Assembly: GCA_902826815.1 (NCBI GenBank)
Contig: CADEGF010000012.1
Coordinates: 45,810 to 109,809, forward strand
Source: an uncultured Mycobacteriaceae bacterium
GTDB taxonomy: Bacteria > Actinomycetota > Actinomycetes > Mycobacteriales > Mycobacteriaceae
Length of the DNA: 64,000 nucleotides
Reading direction: 5' to 3'
In this document: positions 92 to 62,341 of the stretch, piece after piece
How the letters are laid out: each line of letters opens with the position of its first letter
Numbering within the stretch: position 1 is the first letter of the stretch
Program-made: the position numbers and the translations under genes
Notes under the pieces: generated by a model
Seen by the model: only the letters and a program-made list of their open reading frames with translations
What the model was told of the DNA's origin: nothing
Database searches by the model: none

Positions 92-931
92 CTACTGATG
101 CGCGGGCAGCGGCAGCCGGAGCAGCTCGCGTGTTTCGGCCGCCGACGCCGGATGCCGGTCGTACTCGGCGCAGAGGCTTGCAACGCGGGCGACCAGCTCG
201 GCGTTGGAGGCCGCGAGCCGGCCCTTGCTGTAGAAGATGTTGTCCTCGAGTCCGGTACGCACGTGCCCACCGCGCGCCAGCGCCCAGCGGTTGGCCTCCA
301 GCTGGAACCTACCGGTCGCCATGCATGTCCATGTCGCCTCCGGCATCAGCTCCCGAATCTCGGCGGAGAAGAAGTCCACCAACGACTCCCGCGGAGGCAG
401 CGCGTTCTTGATGCCCATGACCAGCTGCACCTGTGGCCCTGGCGCCAGCAGGCCGCGGTCCAGCAGGTCGGCCGCCTTGTACAGCATGGCCAGGTCGAAC
501 ACCTCGATCTCCGGCCTGATGCCGAGATCGATCAGCCGACCGGCGATGTCCTCCACCACGTCCGGCGGATTTTCATAGATGCCGGTCGGGAAGTTCACCG
601 ACCCGGTCGAGAACGACGCCATCTCCGGCCGCAGCTCGAGACAGGCGAAGCGCTCCTCGATCGTCCTGCCGCGCGCCCCCGTCGACATCTGCACAATCAT
701 CTCCGGGCAGGCTTCCCGAATGCCGCGCTGGACCTCCTCGTACAGCGCGGGGTCGGACCCAGGCCGCTCATCGGCATCGCGGACGTGGACGTGGCAGACC
801 GTCGCGCCCGCCTCGAACGCCTCAATGGCCGACGCCACCTGACGTTCGGGTACGACCGGAAGCGCGGGGTTGTCGCGGGTGGTCGGCACGGCACCGGTGA
901 TTGCGACGGTGATGATCGCCGGAGTGGTCAT
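92..931 (-). CDS. Beta-keto acid cleavage enzyme (BKACE, DUF849)
   Basis: 279 aa. Enzymes of this family (prototype Kce, 3-keto-5-aminohexanoate cleavage enzyme) transfer the acyl part of a beta-keto acid to CoA using acetyl-CoA, giving acetoacetate and a new acyl-CoA. The Zn-site motif HVHVRD is present (H47, H49), and E229 in GLEDNIF fits the third ligand. The length is normal for the family. The ATG at 929-931 overlaps the TGA of the upstream biotin carboxylase (ATGA), with GGAGG just ahead, so translation is probably coupled. It is the last gene of a four-gene minus-strand operon with a split biotin-dependent carboxylase. That context suggests it consumes a beta-keto acid made by the carboxylase. 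The family is clear, but its substrate cannot be read from sequence. Confidence 0.93.
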   Translation of the reverse strand: MTTPAIITVAITGAVPTTRDNPALPVVPERQVASAIEAFEAGATVCHVHVRDADERPGSDPALYEEVQRGIREACPEMIVQMSTGARGRTIEERFACLELRPEMASFSTGSVNFPTGIYENPPDVVEDIAGRLIDLGIRPEIEVFDLAMLYKAADLLDRGLLAPGPQVQLVMGIKNALPPRESLVDFFSAEIRELMPEATWTCMATGRFQLEANRWALARGGHVRTGLEDNIFYSKGRLAASNAELVARVASLCAEYDRHPASAAETRELLRLPLPAHQ

Positions 932-2304
932 GTCATTGCCTCCTGTGGGATGTGAGAGAGCGGCAGCCGGTCGGCCAGGTAGGACGTGGTGTGCGTCGCA
1001 TCGACGAACTCCGACTGGTCGAGCAGCCACCGGTGAAATGGAAGGGTCGTCGGGACCCCGTCGACCCTGAACTCGCGCAGTGCACGCCGGGCGCGCCGGA
1101 TCACCTGATAACGATCGGCGCCGTGCACGATCAGCTTCGCCAGCAACGAGTCGTAGTACGGCGACATCTCCCACCCGCTGTAGCAGTGCGTGTCGCAGCG
1201 GATACCCGGCCCCGCTGGCGGTTCGAACACAGCGATCCGTCCGGGGCCGGGCCGGAAGTCGGCGGTGGGGTCCTCTGCGGTGATCCGGAACTCCATGGCG
1301 TGTCCGTGAGAAGCCGGCGAGTCGAGTCCGTCGAGGGGCTGACCGCCAGCAATCAGCAGCTGCCACGCCACCAGGTCGACGCCGGTGATCTCTTCGGTGA
1401 CCGGGTGCTCGACCTGGATCCGGGTGTTCATCTCGATGAAGGTGAATTCGCCTGTCGTGACATCCAAGAGGAACTCGACTGTCCCCGCGCTGCGGTAGTC
1501 CGCCGCAGCGGCAAGGCGCAGCGCGGTTTCGGACAACTCGGCCCTGACCGAGTCGGCGAGGGACGGCGCAGGCGCCTCCTCGACGAGCTTCTGATGACGA
1601 CGCTGAAGAGAGCAGTCCCGCTCCCCCAGCGACACCAGCCCACCGTGGTGGTCGCCAAGCACCTGGACCTCCACATGGCGCACAGCCGGGAGGTAGCGCT
1701 CGACGTACATGCCGTCGTCTCCGAACGCACCGGCCGCCTCCTGCCGCGCGAGCGCGAGTGTGGGTATCAGCTCGTCCTCGCGGTTGACGACGCGCATCCC
1801 CTTGCCCCCGCCGCCCGCGCTGGCCTTGAGTAGCAGCGGATAGCCGTGGTCGCGACCAAAGCGCAGCGCCTGCTCGTCGTCTCGCAGAATCCCGTCGGAG
1901 CCCGGCACGATCGGTACGCCTGCGTCGGCGGCGAGCGTTCGCGCGCGTGCCTTGTCGCCCATCTGGGCGATCGTCTCCGGAGCCGGGCCTACCCAGGTCA
2001 ATCCGGCCGATCCGACCGCACGCGCGAACCCCGCGTCCTCGGAAAGAAATCCGTACCCGGGATGCACGGAGTCGCAATCGGTGGCCTCCGCCACGTGCAC
2101 GAGTGCGTCGCGGTTCAGGTAGCTGGCGGTGGCGGGCGGTGGTCCGATCAACACCGAGCGGTCGGCGAGCGCGACATGGCGCGCGTCCCGGTCGGCGGCG
2201 GAGTGCACGGCCACGGTCTCGATGCCGAGGTCCCTGGCAGCGCGAATCACGCGGACGGCGATCTCACCCCGGTTGGCGACGAGAAGGCGCTGCAAACCCG
2301 ACAT
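928..2304 (-). CDS. Biotin carboxylase subunit
   Basis: 458 aa, the usual length of a free-standing biotin carboxylase. It carboxylates the biotin on a carrier protein using ATP and bicarbonate. Visible landmarks are the N-terminal [19 protein letters not shown], the glycine-rich ATP loop [21 protein letters not shown] and EMNTRIQVEHPVTE. It starts 3 bp after the carboxyltransferase stop and its TGA overlaps the start of the BKACE gene. With the neighbouring carboxyltransferase and carrier it makes a split three-subunit carboxylase, in contrast to the single-chain pyruvate carboxylase at 58958-62341. Function as a biotin carboxylase is secure; the acceptor of the whole complex is not. Confidence 0.95.
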   Translation of the reverse strand: MSGLQRLLVANRGEIAVRVIRAARDLGIETVAVHSAADRDARHVALADRSVLIGPPPATASYLNRDALVHVAEATDCDSVHPGYGFLSEDAGFARAVGSAGLTWVGPAPETIAQMGDKARARTLAADAGVPIVPGSDGILRDDEQALRFGRDHGYPLLLKASAGGGGKGMRVVNREDELIPTLALARQEAAGAFGDDGMYVERYLPAVRHVEVQVLGDHHGGLVSLGERDCSLQRRHQKLVEEAPAPSLADSVRAELSETALRLAAAADYRSAGTVEFLLDVTTGEFTFIEMNTRIQVEHPVTEEITGVDLVAWQLLIAGGQPLDGLDSPASHGHAMEFRITAEDPTADFRPGPGRIAVFEPPAGPGIRCDTHCYSGWEMSPYYDSLLAKLIVHGADRYQVIRRARRALREFRVDGVPTTLPFHRWLLDQSEFVDATHTTSYLADRLPLSHIPQEAMT

Positions 2305-2307
2305 CGC

Positions 2308-3777
2308 TCAGCGCACCACGTTCAGCCGCAGCCCGGGGCGCTCCACGCGGATCGTCTGACCTGCCGGGCCGCTGCGCAGGCCGTCGAGCAAGTGCGCCAG
2401 CGGGTCAGACGCTGACGCGTGTGACGGCGCCGCGCGCCGACGTGCCTGCCGCAGATCGGTGAGCTCCTGGTCGGAGTAGAACGCTGCGAGCAGCAGGTCG
2501 TCGTCGGAGTCGAACGGTCCCCGCTCCCGCCGTAGCTCGGGCAGCGCGGCCGGAATGACCTCGCCGGCCCGGCCCTCGAACGGCTCAGATGCTCCGCGTG
2601 CGAAAACACGGTCGGCAACATTGGGGTCGACCTGGCCGGCCAGGCGGCCGTAGTACCCGCGTACGTACCTGGCGACCTCGTCCGGAATCGTCGCGTACCG
2701 CTCGTCGCCGAGCACGTTCAGCATCGCCTGCGCGATCACGTACTGGGCGAACGGGCTGACCAGGATCGGGTAGCCGAGATCGACGCGGACCTGTTCGGCC
2801 TCCTCGAGGATCTCGGCCGCGCGATCCTCCAGGTTCATCCGCTTCAGGTCGGCGCGCAGGTTGGAAATCATGCCGCCGGGCACCTGGTGCCGGTACAGAT
2901 CGGGGTCGAACCGGTTCGGCACGGCGAGCGGGAACCCGTGACGGTGGGCGACGCCGGTGAAGTAGTCCGTCATCGCGGCCAGCCCGTCGCGGTCGAGTCT
3001 GCTTTCGATGCCGTCCTTCGCAAGGTGTCGCGCGCAGTACTCGGTCGACGGCAGGGACGCTCCGCCCGCGAGCGGATCGCTCGCGGTGTGCAGGATGTCG
3101 ACGCCGAGGCGCGCCGCCTCGAGGTAGCACGGCTCGGCCATCCCCGACAATGAATGCGAGTGCAGTTCCAGGGGCACATCGCCGATCACCGACTTGAGTG
3201 CGGGCACGAGCGTGCGCACCCGGTCCGGGAGCAGCAGGCCCGACGGGTCCTTGATCATCACGGTGTCAGCGCCGAGACCGACCAGTTCGCGGGCCACCCG
3301 CTGGTAGTACTCGTCGGTGTGCACCGGGGAGATCGTGTACACGAGGGCGGCGGCCACGTGCAGGCCCTCCTCCTTGCCGACCCGCACCGACGCCTCGAGG
3401 TTGCGGGTGTCGTTCAGCGCGTCGTAGACGGTGATGCGGTGCATCCCGTTGGCCCGGATCCGCCGGATGGTCAGCTCGACGACGTCGTCGGCGAAGAACC
3501 GGAACGTGAACAGACTCTGGCCGCGGGTCATGATGTCGATCGGCGTGGTGCGGACACGCTCGGCGACCAGACGCATCCGCTCCCACGGATCCTCGTGCAG
3601 GAAGCGGACGCACACGTCGAAGACGGCGCCGCCCTCGAGGTTGATCCAATCGAACCCGACGCGGTCCATTTGCTCGGCGATCGGCAGGATCATTGCGTTC
3701 GTCATCCGGGTCGCCCACAGCGACTGGTGGCCGTCACGGGTGGTGACGTCGACGTAGCGCATTCGCTTGGCGCTCAT
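2308..3777 (-). CDS. Carboxyltransferase subunit, pyruvate carboxylase / OadA-like DRE-TIM barrel, substrate unknown
   Basis: 489 aa with the ATG at 3775-3777, which overlaps the carrier gene stop (ATGA). It resembles oxaloacetate decarboxylase alpha and the carboxyltransferase part of pyruvate carboxylase: VTTRDGHQSLWATR near the N-terminus, EGGAVFDVCVRFLHEDPWER, IKDPSGLL, LHSHSLSG and the PGGMISNLR segment. Metal-site residues D15, K176, H206 and H208 are kept, as are R14 and Q18. Compared with pyruvate carboxylase in this same window, IYRIFDALN becomes RITVYDALN, so the pyruvate-binding Arg is Thr (T116), and RGRNTVGY becomes RGQSLFTF. The acceptor is therefore probably not pyruvate. A ketone or another keto acid is my inference. 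Decarboxylation in the reverse direction is possible in principle. Confidence 0.9.
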   Translation of the reverse strand: MSAKRMRYVDVTTRDGHQSLWATRMTNAMILPIAEQMDRVGFDWINLEGGAVFDVCVRFLHEDPWERMRLVAERVRTTPIDIMTRGQSLFTFRFFADDVVELTIRRIRANGMHRITVYDALNDTRNLEASVRVGKEEGLHVAAALVYTISPVHTDEYYQRVARELVGLGADTVMIKDPSGLLLPDRVRTLVPALKSVIGDVPLELHSHSLSGMAEPCYLEAARLGVDILHTASDPLAGGASLPSTEYCARHLAKDGIESRLDRDGLAAMTDYFTGVAHRHGFPLAVPNRFDPDLYRHQVPGGMISNLRADLKRMNLEDRAAEILEEAEQVRVDLGYPILVSPFAQYVIAQAMLNVLGDERYATIPDEVARYVRGYYGRLAGQVDPNVADRVFARGASEPFEGRAGEVIPAALPELRRERGPFDSDDDLLLAAFYSDQELTDLRQARRRAAPSHASASDPLAHLLDGLRSGPAGQTIRVERPGLRLNVVR

Positions 3778-4298
3778 GCGGGTTCGATCCAAATCAGCGG
3801 CTGGCCGAACTCCACCAAGGCAGTGTCGTCGGCGTCGATTCTGGCGACCTTGCCCGCCACCTCGGTCTTGAGCTCGGTGAATAGCTTCATCACCTCGACG
3901 AGGCCAACGGTGTCCCCGGCCGCGACGACGTCACCGGCCTCCACATACGACGGCTCCCCTGGCTTGGGTGAGCGGTAGAAAGTACCGACCATCGGGGCGC
4001 CGATCGCCACCCAGTGATCGGGGACGCCGGGCGCGTCGTCGGAGCCTGCCTTCGTCTGCGGGGCGGCGGTGACCGCCGCTTCGAGTTCGGCGGTGGTGCT
4101 CGACGCCGCAGGTTCGGGGCTCGCTTGCGCGACGCCGACGGCGGTCCGCGACTCGGCGCAAACACCGTTGCTGCCCATCGGATCTCCGTGTCGTACCCGC
4201 AGCCTCAGATCGCCCCACTCCAGATCGACCTCGGAGGCGTCGATCGACTCGAGCAACCGAAGGATCTGTCCGACTTCAGCGAACGTCAGGTCCGGCAT
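3774..4298 (-). CDS. Biotin carboxyl carrier protein
   Basis: 174 aa, AccB-like. It has an N-terminal helix, an Ala/Pro-rich linker (about residues 45-90) and a C-terminal biotinyl domain. The biotin attachment motif is EVMKLF with K138; MKL instead of MKM is normal for AccB-type carriers. It carries carboxy-biotin between the biotin carboxylase and the carboxyltransferase encoded immediately downstream. It is the first gene of the operon, and the IclR-type palindrome at 4342-4356 lies 44-58 bp ahead of its start, so its promoter is where control of the whole operon should act. Confidence 0.93.
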   Translation of the reverse strand: MPDLTFAEVGQILRLLESIDASEVDLEWGDLRLRVRHGDPMGSNGVCAESRTAVGVAQASPEPAASSTTAELEAAVTAAPQTKAGSDDAPGVPDHWVAIGAPMVGTFYRSPKPGEPSYVEAGDVVAAGDTVGLVEVMKLFTELKTEVAGKVARIDADDTALVEFGQPLIWIEPA

Positions 4299-4341
4299 CT
4301 GCCCCTACCTCTCCGGGTTGAGATTGGCAATCGTGCATTTT

Positions 4342-4356
4342 TGGAAAGGCTTTCCA
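4342..4356. promoter_or_regulatory. IclR-type operator ahead of the carboxylase operon
   Basis: TGGAAAGGCTTTCCA is a 7-bp perfect inverted repeat around one base. It fits the E. coli IclR consensus TGGAAATNATTTCCA except in the centre. It sits 44 bp upstream of the carrier protein start codon, and a second copy precedes the MFS/amidase operon. The IclR gene at 4518 is the obvious candidate to bind both. Binding itself is inferred. Confidence 0.75.
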
Positions 4357-4517
4357 TTCTTGAGTGTTGTTCAGCTCATGGCTGGTGTCAAGGCATGGAA
4401 GCGGCCGTTGCGCGAACGCGCTGGTCGACGTGCCGCGTCGCCGGTGACGCGAGATGTACGCTCACACAAGCACTACGGATCTCACAGGTGACGAATCGGA
4501 TACGGAGGTGCTCGCTG

Positions 4518-5303
4518 ATGGCGAGTCCGATGCAGTCGACGTCCGTGGGGACACAGGCGATCAGCCGAACCCTCGCCGTTCTCACCTTGTTCCGCGAAAA
4601 CGACGGTGATCTCGGCATCTCCGACATCTCGAGGCAGCTGTCGCTCAGCGTCAGCACAGTGCACCGGATCGTGCGCGCACTCGTCGACGACGATTATTTG
4701 AGCCAGGACGTCGGAAGCGACCGCTACACGCTCGGACGCTCGGCCGTTCTGCTCGGCCATGCGGCCAACCGTCGACTCGGGCTCGACCGCGCCAAGACGG
4801 TGATCGAGCGCCTCCGCGACGAGTCGGGCGAGTCGGTCAACCTCGGCGTACGGGATGGCGCGGAAATGGTGGTGGTCGTCAGCGTCGAGTCCAGGCAGGG
4901 GTTGCGGATCTCCCAGTCGCCCGGCAGCCGGCTCCCCGTTCACGCCACCGCCATGGGTAAGGCGACGCTGTCCCACGGAACCCGATCCATCGAGGATGAG
5001 GTCGCCGGCCTGGACATGCCGCTTCAACGGCTGACCAAGAACACGATCACAACGGCCACGGCACTGCGCAAGGAGCTGAACCTGGTTCGCCGCCGCGGGT
5101 ACAGCATCGATGATCAGGAGGCGATCGAGGGTGTGCGTTGTATCGCCGTGCCGATCATCTCGCCGGAGGGCGACCTGCTCGCCGCAATGGCCGTGCAGGG
5201 TCCGACCGTGCGCATGACCGACGCCCAGCTGAAACGGGCTGTTCCACTGCTGCGTGCGGCTGCACACGAGATCGCGGCGCTGCTCCCGCCAGACCCGCTG
5301 TGA
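4518..5303 (+). CDS. IclR-family transcriptional regulator
   Basis: 261 aa. The N-terminal winged helix (about residues 10-70, with SDISRQLSLSVSTVHRIVRAL as recognition region) is followed by the IclR effector domain with GSRLPVHATAMGKA, GYSIDDQEAIEGVRCIAVPI and GDLLAAMAVQGP. The ATG at 4518 is preceded by GGAGGTG at a good distance. It is transcribed away from the carboxylase operon and towards the amidase, from which its stop is 16 bp away. Two matching operators flank it, one per catabolic operon, so it is very likely their local regulator and would respond to a pathway compound. The effector is unknown. Confidence 0.93.
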   Translation: MASPMQSTSVGTQAISRTLAVLTLFRENDGDLGISDISRQLSLSVSTVHRIVRALVDDDYLSQDVGSDRYTLGRSAVLLGHAANRRLGLDRAKTVIERLRDESGESVNLGVRDGAEMVVVVSVESRQGLRISQSPGSRLPVHATAMGKATLSHGTRSIEDEVAGLDMPLQRLTKNTITTATALRKELNLVRRRGYSIDDQEAIEGVRCIAVPIISPEGDLLAAMAVQGPTVRMTDAQLKRAVPLLRAAAHEIAALLPPDPL

Positions 5304-5319
5304 TGGCATGGTCGCGCGG

Positions 5320-6696
5320 TTAGCGGATCGCTTCGCGTCGCGCCGGTAGGCACTGCCAGCCGACCCAGCGCTCGACGGCTCGCGCCACCCGAAGGATCCC
5401 GGCCTCGTCGCCGTAGCCGCCGGCCACGTGAAGTCCGACGGGCAGGCCGTTCTCGGCCACCCCGCACGGAACCGAAACCGACGGCAGCCCGAGGAAGCTT
5501 GTCGGAAGTAGGAAACGCCGAACCCGTTTGAGCTCGTCGGGCCTCGCGTCCAACCGGAGGGGCTCGACCGGCTGGGTCGGCGTCACCAACACGTCCACGG
5601 AGTCGAAAACGGCACCCATACGCAACTGCAGCTTCGCCCTGTCGGCAAGCGCGCGCTCGTACATTTCCTGGCTCACCGCCGAGCCACGGTCGATGTTGTC
5701 GCGCACGACGGGTCCCCACAGCGTTGGGTCGCATGCAGTACCTGCCAGCTCTCCCATCGCCCGGTGGAACTCGTAGCACAGGACGTCAAAAAGCCTGTCC
5801 GGCTCCAGTAGCGAGTCGAGTGCGGGAATCACGACGCTGCGGATCTCGGCGCCCAGCTCGGCGAGGGCGTCGACGGCCTTGCGCACCGGACGCTCCACAC
5901 CCGGATCGAGGCCGACCAGTGAGAGATTCTCGATCAGCCCGATCCGCACGCCTTCGAGACCGACAACCGACGCGTCCTCGATGGCGAGCGTCTCGCGGTC
6001 GGTCATCACGCTAAGCAGCACCGCCACGTCGTCCACCGTGCGAGCAATCGGGCCCGCGGCATCCAGCGTCGGGGCCCGCGCGAAAGCTCCCGAGATATCG
6101 ACGGATCCGTACGTCGGGCGGACCCCCACCACCCCACAGACGCTCGCAGGGAAGCGGATCGAGCCACCGGTGTCAGAGCCGACACCGGCCATGGCCATGC
6201 CCGCGGCGACCGCCGACGCCGTGCCTCCCGACGAACCGCCCGCCGAGTACTCGCCGTTCCACGGGTTGCGCATATCGCCGAAGGCCTCGTTTCGTCCCGA
6301 CATGTCGGCGGCGAACTCGGCGAGGTTGTTCTTGCCAAGGAACACCACGCCCGCTGCACGCAGCCTGCCCACGACGGCGGCGTCCGCCTTCGCCTTTGCG
6401 GCATAGGCGCGCGAGCGGGACCCCGCGGTCGTGCGTACGCCGACGACGTCGAACAGGTCCTTCACCGAGATCGGGATGCCATGCAGCGGCCCGCGATCGA
6501 TGCCGGCCGCCAGTTCGGCGTCCAGCGACGTCGCCTGGCGTAGCGCGTCGTCACCGGTCACCTCGATGAAGGCAACCAGGCTCGGGTCGAGAGCCGCGAT
6601 CCGTTCGAGGTGGGACGACGCAAGCCCGACACAGCTGAACTCTCCGCTCCGAAGCCGGGCGCCGGCGGCAGCGATGGTCAATGATTCTGCGGTCAC
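5320..6696 (-). CDS. Amidase-signature hydrolase
   Basis: 458 aa. The Ser-cisSer-Lys triad of the amidase signature family is visible: K79 in ISVKDLFD, S155 in AGGSSGG and S179 in GSDTGGSIRFPAS. These spacings match the family. It hydrolyses a C-N amide bond to release ammonia or an amine. There is no GatB neighbour, so it is not the glutamyl-tRNA amidotransferase subunit. It follows the MFS transporter gene by 16 bp and shares its operator. In this context it probably trims an imported amide before the carboxylase/BKACE step. Substrate not predictable from sequence. Confidence 0.9.
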   Translation of the reverse strand: MTAESLTIAAAGARLRSGEFSCVGLASSHLERIAALDPSLVAFIEVTGDDALRQATSLDAELAAGIDRGPLHGIPISVKDLFDVVGVRTTAGSRSRAYAAKAKADAAVVGRLRAAGVVFLGKNNLAEFAADMSGRNEAFGDMRNPWNGEYSAGGSSGGTASAVAAGMAMAGVGSDTGGSIRFPASVCGVVGVRPTYGSVDISGAFARAPTLDAAGPIARTVDDVAVLLSVMTDRETLAIEDASVVGLEGVRIGLIENLSLVGLDPGVERPVRKAVDALAELGAEIRSVVIPALDSLLEPDRLFDVLCYEFHRAMGELAGTACDPTLWGPVVRDNIDRGSAVSQEMYERALADRAKLQLRMGAVFDSVDVLVTPTQPVEPLRLDARPDELKRVRRFLLPTSFLGLPSVSVPCGVAENGLPVGLHVAGGYGDEAGILRVARAVERWVGWQCLPARREAIR

Positions 6697-6712
6697 TGTC
6701 GCGATGTCTCGC

Positions 6713-8155
6713 CTAGGCCTTCTTCGCCTTGGCCGGTAAATCGGTACCGAGATCCTCCATGTTGCGACCGCTGGTCTCCTTGCCGAGGAAGAACATCGGT
6801 GCCGCCAGCAGGACCATGGCCACCGCTGCGGCCGTGAGCACGGCAGTCACCCCGAACCCGTCGAACAGGCTTGGCAGGAAAGCGACCAGGATGCCGCCGG
6901 TCAGGCCCCGGCTGGTCATCTCTCCGAGGCTGGTCCCCAGTCCGCGCAGCCGGGTCGGATACTGCTCCGCCATATACATCTTCGGGATCGAGAAGCTCCC
7001 GAGCCCGAACCACGCGGTGGCGAGACCCCCGATGACGACGACCACGATTCCGACGACCGGTTCGAGCGTGAGCAGGATCAGGCCGACGGCGGCGATCACC
7101 ATGTACACGGCGAAGACCGGCTTCCGTCCTCGGGTGTCGGCGAACTTGCCCTGGTAGAAGACACCGAACGCCGAGACGAACATCATCACGCCGGTGTACA
7201 ACAACGCGTTCGACTTCGTCGCCCCGAGCATGCCGAAGATCTTCGGCGCGTAGGTGAGCATGGTGTACCAGACGATGAACGAGGCGGTCAGGGCCGAGTA
7301 TGCGATCAGGCTGCGGCGGAGATAGGGCGCCTTCAACAGTCGGCGCATCCGCATCGACTCACGGTCCGCGGTGTGGTCGAGCACTGCCACGATCTCGGGG
7401 TCGACGATCTTGTCATCGTGCGCGAGGCCGGCTTCGTCCTCGATTTGGTTGACCAGCTTGCGTACGTCGTCACGGTCACTCGCCGACCCCGTACGCTCCG
7501 CCTTGCGGAGCTGGAACCGTGGACTCTCCGGCACCCATTTGGCCAGCACCGGCAACAGCAGCAGCGGAATCCCGCCAATCAGGCACGGCACCCGCCACGA
7601 CCATTCGGTGTCGAACGTGCTGACCGCCCACAGTCCGACAAGCGCAGGCAGCGTGTACCCGGCGTTCAGGACCCACTGCGCGTAGCCCATGATCCGGCCG
7701 CGCGCTTCCTTGTTCACCAACTCGGAGATCATCAGGTACGGCACGGGGAAGATGGCGCCCTCCCCGAGGCCCGCGATCATCCGCAGCACGATCAGCGATC
7801 CGAAGTTCGTGGCGAACGCGCAGAGCAGTGTGAAGACGGCGAACACTGCGGTGCCGACAAGCAGCACCTTCTTGCGGCCGTACAGGTCGGCCAACCTGCC
7901 GGCAGGCAGCATGCCGAGGAGCAGTCCGATGGTCCCGGATGCGCCGAGAAGTCCGATCTGGCCCGGGGACAGGTCCCAATGCGGCCCGAGCACCAGGATG
8001 AGAACGCTCACCAGGCCGATGTCGAACGACTCGAGCAGCCAGACGAGCACGACCACACCGATGCCGACGCGAAGCGTGCGGGTGACGGGCGCCCGGTCGA
8101 GGCGGGTAAGCAGGTTCGCATCGACGGCGACGACGGATGAAGCATCGGAAGGCAT
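6713..8155 (-). CDS. MFS transporter, sugar-porter/AAHS-like
   Basis: 480 aa with about 12 hydrophobic segments. The loop 2-3 motif GRLADLYGRKKV, the central PESPRFQLRKAE and a second GKFADTRGRKPV are major-facilitator signatures, nearest to sugar-porter and aromatic-acid:H+ symporter families. It should be an inner-membrane uptake system for the pathway substrate. I chose the ATG at 8153-8155 because GGAG lies 8 nt upstream; a GTG at 8162-8164 is possible but would place GGA directly against the start. The promoter region holds a strong IclR-type palindrome. It is co-transcribed with the amidase. Confidence 0.92.
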   Translation of the reverse strand: MPSDASSVVAVDANLLTRLDRAPVTRTLRVGIGVVVLVWLLESFDIGLVSVLILVLGPHWDLSPGQIGLLGASGTIGLLLGMLPAGRLADLYGRKKVLLVGTAVFAVFTLLCAFATNFGSLIVLRMIAGLGEGAIFPVPYLMISELVNKEARGRIMGYAQWVLNAGYTLPALVGLWAVSTFDTEWSWRVPCLIGGIPLLLLPVLAKWVPESPRFQLRKAERTGSASDRDDVRKLVNQIEDEAGLAHDDKIVDPEIVAVLDHTADRESMRMRRLLKAPYLRRSLIAYSALTASFIVWYTMLTYAPKIFGMLGATKSNALLYTGVMMFVSAFGVFYQGKFADTRGRKPVFAVYMVIAAVGLILLTLEPVVGIVVVVIGGLATAWFGLGSFSIPKMYMAEQYPTRLRGLGTSLGEMTSRGLTGGILVAFLPSLFDGFGVTAVLTAAAVAMVLLAAPMFFLGKETSGRNMEDLGTDLPAKAKKA

Positions 8156-8172
8156 CGTTGGCACTCCATATA

Positions 8173-8198
8173 TTCCACATGTTGGAAAGCTTTTCCAA
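8173..8198. promoter_or_regulatory. IclR-type operator with an extra half-site, ahead of MFS/amidase
   Basis: TTGGAAA-GCT-TTTCCAA (8182-8198) is a 7-bp perfect inverted repeat that matches the operator at 4342-4356. Just upstream, TTCCA at 8173-8177 pairs with TGGAA at 8183-8187, so three half-sites overlap. It lies 27-43 bp upstream of the MFS start codon, where a bound regulator would cover the promoter. Confidence 0.75.
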
Positions 8199-58394: not shown

Positions 58395-58961
58395 CTACAG
58401 GGGACCCCTGATCCGCTCGGCGATCTCGAGGCGGGTGTCGCCGTAGCGGCGCACCTGCCACGGCTGCCAGCCGTCCGGCCAGTCGAGGTCAGGCCCGGAT
58501 GGGCCGCGCTCGACGACGACGACGCTGCCCTCGGCCGTCCAGCCACGACTGGCCAGCGCCGCGATCATCTCGTTCACCTCCGCGGCGGCGACGTCGTAGG
58601 GCGGATCGGCGAATACCAGGTCGACGGGCCTTTCGGTGCCCACAGCCAGCACCGAGGCGACGGCGCCGCGGCGCACCGTGGCCCCGGTGACGCCAAGCGC
58701 CTTGATGTTCTGGCCGATCACCGCCGCTGCCCGCTGATCGGATTCGACGAAGAGAGCGGTGGCCGCTCCGCGCGAGAGCGCCTCGAGCCCGAGCGCTCCT
58801 GAGCCCGCGTACAGGTCGAGTACGGAGGCGCCGTCCAGATCCATGCGGGCGGTCAGCACGTTGAACAGCGACTCCCGCACCCGATCGGTGGTGGGCCGGG
58901 TGCCGCGCGGCGGCACCGCGATGCGCCGCCCCCCGAGGGCACCGGCGACGATGCGGGTCAG
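58395..58961 (-). CDS. rsmD: 16S rRNA (guanine966-N2)-methyltransferase RsmD, apparent CTG start
   Basis: 188 aa if it starts at CTG 58959-58961. [33 protein letters not shown] is the family N-terminus, [20 protein letters not shown] the SAM site and FADPPYD the catalytic motif. The codon for the first Met of its M. tuberculosis homologue is CTG here, and it overlaps the pca stop as CTGA, like the ATGA/GTGA overlaps elsewhere. The only usual start nearby is a GTG at 58916 that would cut off conserved residues. Confidence 0.88.
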
Positions 58962-61900
58962 CTGACGACCACCAGGAGGTCGCCGCCCTCGACCTGTGCG
59001 GTCTTCGATACGGCGATGCGGCTGACGGCGCCTGCCTTGGGGGCGGTGATCGCCGCCTCCATCTTCATCGCCTCGATGGTGGCGATGGTCTGGCCCGCAT
59101 CGACCTTGTCTCCGTCGGTGACGGCGACGGTGACGACACCGGCGAACGGCGCGGCGACGTGGTCGGGATTGGACCGGTCGGCCTTCTCGGCGGCGGGGAC
59201 GTCGCTGGCGATACTGCGATCGCGCACCACCACCGGGCGCAGTTGCCCGTTGAGGATGCACATCACGGTGCGCATACCGCGTTCGTCAGGCTCGGAGATC
59301 GCTTCCAGCCCGATCAACAGCTCGACGCCGCGTTCGAGTCGGACCCGATGCTCGTCACCTGGCCGAAGCCCGTAGAAGAACTGGTTGGCCGAAAGGCTCG
59401 AGGTGTCGCCGTAGAGATCGCGGTGGGCGTCGAATTCCTTTGTCGGACCCGGGAACAGAAGCCGGTTGAGTTCAGCCTGGCGTTTTGGGCCAGCAGAAGC
59501 CAGCGTCTCTTCGTCGTCGGGTGTCAGCTCCTGGGTCGGCTTGGCCGGTGGACGGCCCGCAAGCGCCTTGGTGCGCAGCGGCTCCGGCCAGCCGCCTGGC
59601 GGATCGCCGAGCTCGCCGCGCAGGAACTCGATGACGGAATCGGGGATGTCGAATCGTGCTGGGTCGGCGGCGAATTCGTCGGCGGTGGCCCCCGCCCCCA
59701 CCAACGCCAAGGCGAGGTCGCCGACCACCTTGCTCGACGGGGTCACCTTCACCAGCCGGCCGAGGATGCGGTCGGCCCCGGCGTAGGCATTCTCGACGTG
59801 CTCGAACCGGTCCCCCAGCCCAAGCGCGATGGCCTGCTGGCGAAGGTTCGACAGCTGGCCCCCGGGGATCTCGTGGTGATACACCCGTCCGGTCGGCGCG
59901 GGCAGACCAGATTCGAAGGGGGCGTATACCTTTCGGAGCGCTTCCCAGTACGGCTCGAGCTCGCACACCGCGGCCAGCGACAGCCCGGTGTCGTATTCGG
60001 TATGCGCGGTGGCCGCGACGATTGAGCTCAACGCCGGTTGGCTCGTCGTGCCCGCGAGCGGTGCCGCGGCGCCGTCGACCGCCGATGCGCCCGCCTGCCA
60101 TGCCGCTAGATAGGTGGCCAGCTGACCGCCCGGAGTGTCATGGGTGTGTACGTGTACCGGCAGGTCAAACCGCGAGCGCAACGCAGAGACCAACGCCGTT
60201 GCAGCCTGCGGCCGCAGCAACCCGGCCATGTCCTTGATCGCCAACACGTGCGCGCCTGCGTCGACGATCTGCTCGGCCAGCTTCAGGTAGTAGTCCAGCG
60301 TGTAAAGGTTCTCACCGGGATCGGACAGATCACCGGTGTAGCTCATCGCGACTTCGGCTATCGCCGTGCCCGTTTCACGCACTGCGTCGATCGCCGGACG
60401 CATCGACTCGACGTTGTTCAGCGCGTCGAAGATCCGGTAGATGTCGATACCGGTCGCGGTCGCCTCGTCGACGAACGCCTTCGTCACCAGCTCCGGATAC
60501 GGGGTGTAGCCAACGGTGTTTCGCCCGCGCAGCAGCATCTGCAGGCAGATGTTGGGCATCGCCGCCCGAAGCGCGGCCAGCCGCTCCCACGGATCTTCCT
60601 TCAAGAACCGAAGCGCCACATCGTAAGTCGCGCCGCCCCAGCATTCGACCGACAACAGCGCGGGCATCATCCGCGCCACGTATGGCGCCACCATCACCAG
60701 CCCGTTGGTGCGCACGCGCGTCGCCAACAGTGACTGGTGTGCGTCGCGGAACGTGGTATCGGTGACGCCGACCGCCGGTGAGTCGCGCATCCACCGCGCG
60801 AAACCCTCGGGGCCGAGTTCGACGAGGCGCTGCCTGCTACCGGGCGGCGGGGGCGCCCCGAGATCGATCTGCGGCAGCTTGTCATAGGGATAGACCGTCG
60901 ACATACGCGGCCCGTGCGGCTGGTTCACCGTCACATCGGCCAGATAGTTGAGGATCTTGGTGCCGCGGTCGGCCGGTGTGCGCGCGGTCAGCAGATACGG
61001 CCGCTCGTCGATGAACGACGTCGTGATCCGACCGGCCCGGAAGTCGGGGTCGTTGACCACCGCCATCAGGAACGGGATGTTCGTCGACACGCCCCTGATC
61101 CGGAACTCGGCAAGCGCGCGGCGGGCGCGCGTGATCGCGGCGGAGAAATCGCGGCCCCGGCAGGTGAGCTTGACCAGCATCGAGTCGAAATGCGCGCTGA
61201 TCTCCGCGCCGAGGTTGCTGCCGCCGTCCAACCGGATACCCGCCCCGCCGGGTGAGCGGTACGCGGTGATGCGACCCGTGTCGGGGCGAAAACCGTTGGC
61301 GGGATCCTCGGTGGTGATCCGGCACTGCAAAGCAGCCCCGCGCGCCGTCAACGTGTCCTGGCTCAGCCCGATCTGCTCGAGCGTCTCGCCGTCGGCGATG
61401 CGCATCTGGGAGGCGACCAGGTCGACGTCGGTGATCTCCTCGGTGACGGTGTGCTCGACCTGGATCCGCGGGTTCATCTCGATGAACACATGGCGGCCGC
61501 GCTCGTCGAGCAGGAACTCGACAGTGCCCGCATACGAGTAGTTGATCTCACGGGCGAATGCGATTGCGTCGGCACACATCTTGGCCCGCAGCTCCTCGGG
61601 CAGGTTCGGCGCCGGCGCCAGCTCGATGACCTTCTGGTGGCGCCGCTGCAGGCTGCAGTCGCGCTCGAACAGATGCATCACGTTGCCGTGCCTGTCGGCC
61701 AGAATCTGCACCTCGATATGGCGCGGATTGAGCACGGCCTGCTCCAGATACACCATCGCGTCGCCAAACGCAGACTCCGCCTCGCGGCTGGCCGCCTCGA
61801 TCGCCTCCGGCAACCCCGCGGCTTCGGTCACCCGCCGCATCCCGCGGCCGCCACCGCCGGACACCGCCTTGACGAACAGCGGGAACTCCATGTCCGACGA

Positions 61901-62341
61901 CGCGGCGACGAGCTCGTCGACCGACGCCGACGGCGCCGAGGACGTCAACACGGGCAGACCCGCCGCCCGCGCGGCAGCGATCGCACGCGCTTTGTTACCC
62001 GTCAGCTCGAGCACCTCGGCCCCCGGCCCGACGAACGTGATCCCCGCATCGGCACACGCCGCGGCCAGATCGGGGTTCTCCGACAGGAAGCCGTACCCGG
62101 GATAGACCGCATCGCAGCCGGCCTGTTTGGCGACCCTGATGATCTCGGCCACCGACAAATAGGCGCGGACCGGATGGCCCGTCTCACCGATCTGATACGA
62201 CTCGTCGGCCTTCAGCCGGTGCTGGGAGTTGCGATCCTCATACGGGTACACCGCGACGGTCGTGATGCCCATCTCGTAAGCGGCACGAAACGCCCGGATC
62301 GCGATCTCGCCGCGATTGGCCACCAAGATTTTGGAGATCAC
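58958..62341 (-). CDS. pca: Pyruvate carboxylase, single chain
   Basis: 1127 aa, four parts in order: biotin carboxylase ([38 protein letters not shown]), carboxyltransferase ([53 protein letters not shown]), tetramerisation region and biotin carrier domain with [10 protein letters not shown] near the C-terminus. It converts pyruvate to oxaloacetate. It keeps the pyruvate-site residues that the split carboxyltransferase at 2308-3777 has lost, so it is a useful internal control. GTG start; 34 bp from the VKOR gene. Confidence 0.97.

Follow-up and report, generated by a model that had tools for sequence, protein, structure and literature searches.

The stretch of DNA analysed here, called the window throughout, comprises 64,000 nucleotides of an uncultured Mycobacteriaceae bacterium (GenBank assembly GCA_902826815.1, contig CADEGF010000012.1, positions 45,810 to 109,809). 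Its reverse strand carries a four-gene unit that encodes a biotin carboxyl carrier protein (BCCP), a carboxyltransferase (CT), a biotin carboxylase (BC) and a beta-keto acid cleavage enzyme (BKACE). The unit is real and conserved, and it probably belongs to a sulfonated-ketone pathway. With slightly better than even confidence, it is read here as a split biotin-dependent ketone carboxylase coupled to BKACE, most likely degrading sulfoacetone (2-oxopropane-1-sulfonate). Loci are given L numbers and genomes G numbers, the genome of the window being G000.

The genes named in the initial annotation (BCCP, CT, BC, BKACE, an IclR-family regulator, an MFS transporter and an amidase) were all found; the family assignments of these seven are backed by Pfam, and each is an open frame. 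BCCP (3774..4298; Biotin_lipoyl, 55 bits) contains the biotinyl lysine motif EVMKLF (lysine 138), CT (2308..3777) matches HMGL-like and PYC_OADA, and BC (928..2304) matches Biotin_carb_N, CPSase_L_D2 and Biotin_carb_C; together they make up the full set for a biotin-dependent carboxylase. BC carries the motifs ERDCS, RRHQK and GGGGKGM, whose roles (ATP-grasp among them) are assumed here. BKACE (92..931) matches PF05853 over its full length (312 bits vs. 24.8; positions 1-274 of 274). The proposed translational coupling of carboxylase and BKACE was borne out by ATGA overlaps (4 nt) at the BCCP/CT and BC/BKACE junctions, two of the three in the four-gene run; CT and BC are separated by 3 nt. The CT frame as listed begins with TTG at 3792, which is probably not the start because ATG at 3777, the likelier one, overlaps the BCCP stop codon. 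Past BKACE and outside the window lie what we take by eye to be a convergent alpha/beta-hydrolase-like open reading frame (ORF) and then core-gene-like ORFs.

A scan for CT in one genome per species gave 22 loci. The earlier reading had been staked on conservation of the gene set in other genomes, and the order BCCP-CT-BC-BKACE is indeed kept in all six close actinobacterial loci (L010-L014 and L019; best segments 67-91% identical), with one in-frame stop in the CT frame of L014, a low-coverage contig of a metagenome-assembled genome (MAG). BKACE of the same subgroup is also present in the clusters of L021, L022, L023, L024, L030 and L119; some 6 kb, with transporter and SDR genes, separate it from BCCP in L022 and L023. 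Overall, BKACE was found in 11 of the 22 CT loci. Among 297 sampled genomes of the genus, a CT search at E<=1e-60 returned the window plus two matches of 37 and 40% only, and among 401 of the family (E<=1e-80) nothing above 41% besides the window. The closest copy seen, L019 of Mycolicibacterium agri, came from the one-genome-per-species scan and did not show up in the genus and family samples. This near-absence suggests that the unit is rare and was probably moved horizontally. The best CT match among plasmid copies is 46.5%; the one annotated plasmid copy, Caballeronia L154, has no BKACE among its listed genes, its gene table being incomplete.

Neighbouring genes connect the unit with sulfonate catabolism. 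By NCBIfam, the aldehyde dehydrogenase beside it is SauS, the acylating sulfoacetaldehyde dehydrogenase, in L021 (730 bits) and L030 (753 bits; cut-off 600). The SauS start codon overlaps the CT stop in L030 (a Roseovarius MAG), in which an AtoE-type carrier follows SauS, and lies 43 nt past the BKACE stop in L021 (a gammaproteobacterial MAG). The genes SauS-SauC-SauD-MFS-BCCP-CT-BC-BKACE-amidase are consecutive on one strand in L011 of Amycolatopsis acididurans (SauS 791 bits), SauC and SauD being a SucC/SucD-like (SauCD-like) ligase; genes from MFS through BKACE overlap by a few bases, as judged from BLAST hit starts, and Xsc (809 bits vs. 676) is found 2.7 kb before SauS. In G783, a span of about 19 kb takes in the carboxylase genes, Xsc and SauS, with no BKACE seen. 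A TauE/SafE sulfite exporter (PF01925, 105 bits) is encoded two genes from BC in L018 and has homologues in L016, L017 and L020. The groups TauE, Rieske, CoA-transferase, AtoE and TRAP were identified by Pfam or NCBIfam on one member, homologues being assigned by BLAST grouping. These sulfonate genes (SauS, Xsc, TauE) at or near CT loci make sulfoacetone the most economical substrate.

The genome of the window itself encodes SauS (785.5 bits vs. 600) and Xsc (1089 vs. 676) in one cluster on contig C32 (L040, G000:C32:30000-49900), which comprises xsc, tauE, an IclR gene, a SucD/SucC-like ligase (below the succinate-CoA ligase cut-offs), sauS, an MFS gene and a second IclR-like ORF. It looks complete and resembles sulfoacetate clusters described in the available text of two reports (PMC12625764, PMC12890257). 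Three ORFs that come next resemble, by appearance, a tripartite tricarboxylate transporter; the largest has no NCBIfam match at E<=1e-40.

Co-occurrence counts agree with this context. Xsc was found in all seven actinobacterial CT genomes, window included, vs. 4 of the 295 other genomes sampled from the phylum (Fisher p 8e-12; without the window, 6/6 and p 2e-10), and SauS above cut-off in five of the seven vs. 1/295 (p 6e-9; 2e-7 without the window). Across the 19 CT genomes searched for SauS, from which those of L017, L025 and L026 were excluded (the L025 neighbours duplicate those of L022), 13 are above cut-off: 4/6 actinobacterial, 8/9 of the other clade members, 1/3 with a distant CT (G311-G313) and 0/1 for the genome of L031. 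The ninth genome of the other clade members, G306, has a SauS match of 467 bits that is cut by the contig end. Xsc was detected at E<=1e-150 in 20 of 21 CT genomes, 19 of them above cut-off, the sole miss being G315. Of 295 genomes from the family to which G308 (L022, Roseovarius halotolerans) belongs, 44 have SauS and three have CT (G308, the starting genome, included), all three together with SauS (p 0.003). The contigs of L022 and L025 (a Polycyclovorans MAG) share a run of neighbouring ORFs, so one of them is probably mis-binned.

In the proposed mechanism, BC would load the biotin of BCCP by using bicarbonate and ATP, and CT would transfer the carboxyl group onto the methyl carbon of sulfoacetone to give 4-sulfoacetoacetate. 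BKACE would convert this compound and acetyl-CoA into sulfoacetyl-CoA and acetoacetate, SauS would reduce sulfoacetyl-CoA to sulfoacetaldehyde, and Xsc would cleave the latter to sulfite and acetyl phosphate. If the product of BKACE is the substrate of SauS, it follows that the beta-keto acid would be 4-sulfoacetoacetate and the carboxylated ketone sulfoacetone. The SDR gene in several proteobacterial loci (L016-L018, L020-L023 and L118) would fit oxidation of the alcohol corresponding to sulfoacetone, and the AtoE-type carrier would fit import of an acetoacetate isostere. AtoE transports acetoacetate, the carboxylate isostere of sulfoacetone, and its presence may be counted in favour of this substrate. 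We infer the substrates and reactions of CT and BKACE, the direction of flow and the roles of the MFS transporter and amidase from sequence and gene context. Ketone carboxylation followed by BKACE, as first proposed, is still the best reading; the substrate has shifted to a sulfonated methyl ketone, given SauS, Xsc and TauE, so that the initial interpretation is supported in part. A larger claim, to which we give about equal weight for and against, is that of a complete undescribed sulfoacetone pathway (methyl carboxylation, BKACE, SauS, Xsc), which would have come together several times by independent recruitment of BKACEs, transporters (AtoE, TAXI-TRAP, MFS) and feeders (SDR in proteobacterial, amidases in actinobacterial loci).

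A second type of locus was observed in L016-L018 and L020, in which BC-CT occurs with SDR, TauE and a stand-alone Rieske protein and with no BKACE nearby. A small BCCP-like gene is present in L016 and L018 and a class III CoA-transferase in L016-L018; this type may represent a version in which the product is activated through CoA transfer.

HVH, STG and RTGLEDN of the window BKACE align to Kce (2Y7D), the His pair, Ser, Arg and Glu-Asp all being kept; their catalytic roles in Kce are presumed here. The underlying motifs HxH, STG and RTGxED are common to the window enzyme and the BKACE family, Kce and NF053568 included. The Glu of GAE in Kce is Val in the window enzyme, which is 49.8% identical to 3NO5, 48.4% to 3CHV and 38.5% to Kce. 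With six close actinobacterial copies (69-91% identity) it forms a separate group, in which each member stands immediately after BC.

The window BKACE also exceeds the NF053568 cut-off (3-oxoadipate:acetyl-CoA acetyltransferase; 415.7 vs. 350 bits), and pca or maleylacetate genes stand beside its relatives in L158 and L157. Both observations speak for a levulinate route, in which CT would make 3-oxoadipate from the methyl group of levulinate, and BKACE and acetyl-CoA would give succinyl-CoA and acetoacetate; the carbon arithmetic is exact. NF053568 is not discriminating here, because all eight CT-locus BKACEs scanned pass its cut-off, and among the ten BKACEs scanned the four actinobacterial ones score lowest (416-429) vs. 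470 and 490 for two from 3-oxoadipate-type clusters. The levulinate route would moreover leave unexplained the SauS genes within or next to the operon at three loci and the Xsc counts (7/7 vs. 4/295), and we consider it unlikely. A protocatechuate-route 3-oxoadipate enzyme in its usual setting was set aside, the neighbours in the window being carboxylase, IclR, amidase and MFS genes. For sulfoacetone degradation, a BKACE of the 3-oxoadipate-type subgroup would fit by analogy: the substrate of that subgroup carries a distal anion, and so would 4-sulfoacetoacetate.

In a tree of 22 BKACE sequences, the seven actinobacterial copies stand apart from the rest (support 0.99). The L024 copy joins that of L157, from a maleylacetate-type cluster (0.91), L021 pairs with L119 (0.99), and L030, L022 and L023 fall together (0.98) and group with 3CHV (0.88); one deep node is supported at only 0.11. 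The BKACEs of CT loci are thus not one clade, which suggests that they were probably recruited beside CT repeatedly; different BKACEs beside the same carboxylase in turn argue that both act in one pathway. A second, distant BKACE (32-34% identical to that of the window) was noted next to the SDR gene in L022 (5714-6565), L023 (6282-7133) and L021 (17294-18133), and adjoins BCCP in L022 and L023; perhaps it provides an extra cleavage step or acts on an alternative substrate. Elsewhere in the genome of the window, G000:C48:44154-44765 matches BKACE partially in two places (75 and 47 bits), the weaker of which contains an in-frame TAG. This could be what is left of a decayed BKACE, or another gene that matches by chance.

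That the unit is the cell's own pyruvate carboxylase was ruled out: an intact, full-length pyruvate carboxylase (PYC) is encoded outside the unit in the same window (58961..62341, reverse strand; PRK12999 1744 bits vs. cut-off 965; TIGR01235 1413 vs. 1114), and it is 29% identical to CT over 389 positions. The CT of the window was aligned with 25 CTs of relatives, OadA (2nx9) and PC-beta (5ks8), L017, L025 and the repeats L115-L117 being excluded. It belongs to the PYC/OadA superfamily and falls into a clade of 18 sequences (the others from L010-L016, L018-L024, L030, L118 and L119) that is separate in the tree. The clade keeps RD[GA]HQ, the Arg of RGQ, the Lys and HxH. All 18 members have Thr in place of the Arg of FR[VI]FD/YRIFD and Phe in place of the Tyr of GYRHY, and at the Trp of WGG the seven actinobacterial CTs, window included, have Glu and the eleven others Val. 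The Trp, Tyr and Arg, which we take to be pyruvate-binding residues, are retained in OadA, PC-beta and the window's own PYC; the window CT has Glu, Phe and Thr. The CT domain, the metal-site HxH and the lysine are therefore held in common with pyruvate carboxylase, oxaloacetate decarboxylase alpha and transcarboxylase 5S, from which the window CT differs by its separate clade, three active-site substitutions and split subunits. A distant CT clade (37-39%) from L027, L028 and L029 has Ser where the KD motif has its lysine, and RNAQQ replaces RDxHQ; it is possibly a non-canonical biotin carboxyltransferase.

These data bear on the plainest explanation, an ordinary pyruvate or acyl-CoA carboxylase of anaplerotic or transcarboxylase type with BKACE beside it by chance. 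CT does pass the cut-off of the 'pyruvate carboxylase subunit B' domain model (453.7 vs. 402), it matches oadA-type models below their cut-offs, and it retains HxH, the lysine, RDxHQ and one arginine. The complete pyruvate carboxylase elsewhere in the window, the changes Trp to Glu, Tyr to Phe and Arg to Thr relative to OadA, PC-beta and the window PYC, and the identical order with BKACE in all six close loci make this explanation very improbable. The initial interpretation is supported on this point too, CT being without the three residues common to the pyruvate-type CTs compared.

The IclR-family regulator (about 4518..5303, forward strand; IclR_C and HTH_IclR) is divergent from the carboxylase genes and has a 79% identical counterpart in L019. 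Beyond it, on the reverse strand, lie the amidase-signature hydrolase (5320..6696; PF01425, 348 bits) and, 16 nt from it, the MFS transporter (6713..8164; PF07690, 156 bits). The latter is nearest the aromatic-acid/H+ symport subfamily, yet under its cut-off (TIGR00895, 187 vs. 418). For the amidase, no NCBIfam model is above cut-off among the matches listed (25 models), the sole PDB match at E<=1e-60 is a GatA subunit, and the matches are to general amidases only. The operator-like palindromes TGGAAAGGCTTTCCA (4342..4356), in the divergent gap between BCCP and IclR, and TTGGAAAGCTTTTCCAA (8182..8198), upstream of MFS-amidase, both have the form TGGAAA-N3-TTTCCA, and the window has no further exact TGGAAA-N2..4-TTTCCA site; 30 mononucleotide shuffles gave a mean of 0 exact sites and 0.07 with <=1 mismatch. 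Exactly two such palindromes were found in the 18.8 kb of L019, at both corresponding places, and no exact site in the other close loci. A putative IclR operator at both sites would place two transcripts, BCCP-CT-BC-BKACE and MFS-amidase, under common control. The two exact palindromes, repeated in L019, thus support the earlier suggestion that MFS, amidase and carboxylase share one regulon.

The further suggestion of an imported amide as starting compound did not prove general: amidase and MFS accompany the unit in four of the six close loci (L011, L012, L014 and L019), and in the other two, L010 (a 9.7-kb contig; PF02667) and L013 (64% identity), an AtoE-type carrier follows directly after BKACE. 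The window amidase shares about 36% identity with those of L011, L012 and L014, so two kinds appear to have been recruited.

The substrate could also be another methyl ketone or keto acid, such as acetoacetate (giving 3-oxoglutarate and malonyl-CoA), an Hpe-like aryl methyl ketone or a ketone released by the amidase, in which case the sulfonate genes would merely co-occur ecologically. The presence of an amidase in four of six close loci, and of two kinds at that, suggests that an amide matters, and carboxylation of phospho-acetophenones by HpeCBA is established. In the available text of PMC9618137, HpeCBA of Rhodococcus rhodochrous GD02 is a split biotin enzyme, phosphophenylethanone carboxylase, whose substrates are phosphorylated acetovanillone and 4-hydroxyacetophenone; its relatives are XccBCA and the acv genes (acvABCDEF, syntenous to hpeHICBAD), and cleavage is proposed via a CoA synthetase and a beta-ketoacyl-CoA hydrolase. 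Because HpeCBA acts on phosphorylated ketones only, that route needs a kinase and a phosphatase (PMC9618137). Neither Hpe kinase (HpeHI) nor phosphatase (HpeD) is among the seven genes of the unit (no genome-wide search for HpeHI was made), nor are the kinase, phosphatase and thiolase of the Hpe-like plasmid loci L155 and L156. The CTs of these loci are only 39-40% identical to the window CT, HpeB itself not being in the comparison. Ecological co-occurrence alone would not place SauS inside the same operon, and a substrate of this kind seems rather unlikely to us. The Hpe system and the window unit would share split BCCP, CT and BC subunits and the formation of a beta-keto acid by carboxylation of a methyl ketone at its methyl carbon; the window unit would differ in dispensing with kinase and phosphatase, in cleaving with BKACE and in having an aliphatic sulfonate as substrate.

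Several observations weigh against sulfoacetone degradation, above all those on the amidase, on where SauS and Xsc lie in this genome and on the charges of the CT active site. The NCBIfam label of BKACE is that of a 3-oxoadipate enzyme, and the amidase has no part in the sulfoacetone model. SauS and Xsc of the window's genome are on a separate contig (C32), away from the unit, and the 19.9 kb of L040 contain no exact operator and one palindrome with a mismatch (L040:15714), a genome-wide scan not having been made. No BKACE was found in the stretches examined of L118 and of 11 of the 22 CT loci (L015-L018, L020, L025-L029 and L031); some of these contigs are short, and missing neighbours mean little in L015, L025 and L026, which are short or edge contigs. 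The active-site motifs are NLEGG and FRFF or FRFY in the actinobacterial CTs and DLVGG and mostly FEFF in the other clade members; these differences in two active-site charges mean that the substrates may not be identical. SauS was not found in two of the seven actinobacterial CT genomes (G297 and G301, both MAGs), and neither SauS nor Xsc in G315 (L031, a Rokubacteria MAG). Xsc is also present in all three genomes with only a distant CT (L027-L029), which lowers its specificity. Finally, the co-occurrence tests ignore shared ancestry, and the Xsc base rate covers the phylum of the window only.

Described sulfoacetate routes use SauS with SauCD or SauT, plus Xsc, and form sulfoacetyl-CoA by sulfoacetate-CoA ligation, according to the available text of PMC12890257 and PMC12625764. 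The model shares sulfoacetyl-CoA and sulfoacetaldehyde downstream, and the window's genome has such a cluster on C32; sulfoacetyl-CoA would however arise from a ketone by carboxylation and BKACE, not by ligation. According to the portions of PMC6365646 at hand, BKACE transfers the acetyl part of a beta-keto acid onto acetyl-CoA, with acetoacetate and an acyl-CoA as products. In the deoxyribonate pathway of Pseudomonas simiae, as outlined there, a catabolic BKACE is proposed to yield acyl-CoA and acetoacetate, in an operon with SDR and MFS genes; its beta-keto acid comes from oxidation of a hydroxy acid, not from carboxylation. The synthetic CORE cycle for CO2 reduction in Escherichia coli, as far as the available text of PMC11961710 describes it, carboxylates acetyl-CoA, reduces malonyl-CoA to the semialdehyde and ends with BKACE, which gives formyl-CoA and acetoacetate. 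There too, biotin-dependent carboxylation feeds a chain ending in BKACE; that cycle is designed, not natural, has a reductase between and involves neither ketone nor sulfonate.

In the open-licence PMC literature searched, nothing was found on sulfoacetone, its synonyms or sulfoacetoacetate, nor any pairing of Xsc with a biotin carboxylase, natural ketone carboxylase-BKACE coupling or sulfonate link; sulfoacetaldehyde and beta-keto acid cleavage occur together in PMC10470551 only, sulfoacetaldehyde merely in a reference. The pathway had been called undescribed. This no longer applies to biotin-dependent methyl ketone carboxylation as such (PMC9618137) or to a synthetic BKACE feed (PMC11961710), going by the available text of both; it stands for the natural coupling to BKACE and the sulfonate link, not found in print. 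The kinds of enzyme are known; what would be new is their occurring together in nature, and the substrate.

Organic sulfur includes a large pool of sulfonates, and the unit may be an unreported bacterial way to break them down. The described degradation routes considered here feed the SauS/Xsc steps from sulfoacetate or taurine. Reading the genes in context goes past the automatic names 'pyruvate carboxylase subunit B' and '3-oxoadipate acetyltransferase'. If the reading is true, bacteria would have a dedicated sulfonated-ketone route, at a cost of one ATP and one CO2 for each molecule and with release of sulfite; BKACE would make up the second part of a natural 'carboxylate, then cleave' module, and the genes would serve as markers for seeking sulfoacetone or its precursors in soils and in the sea.

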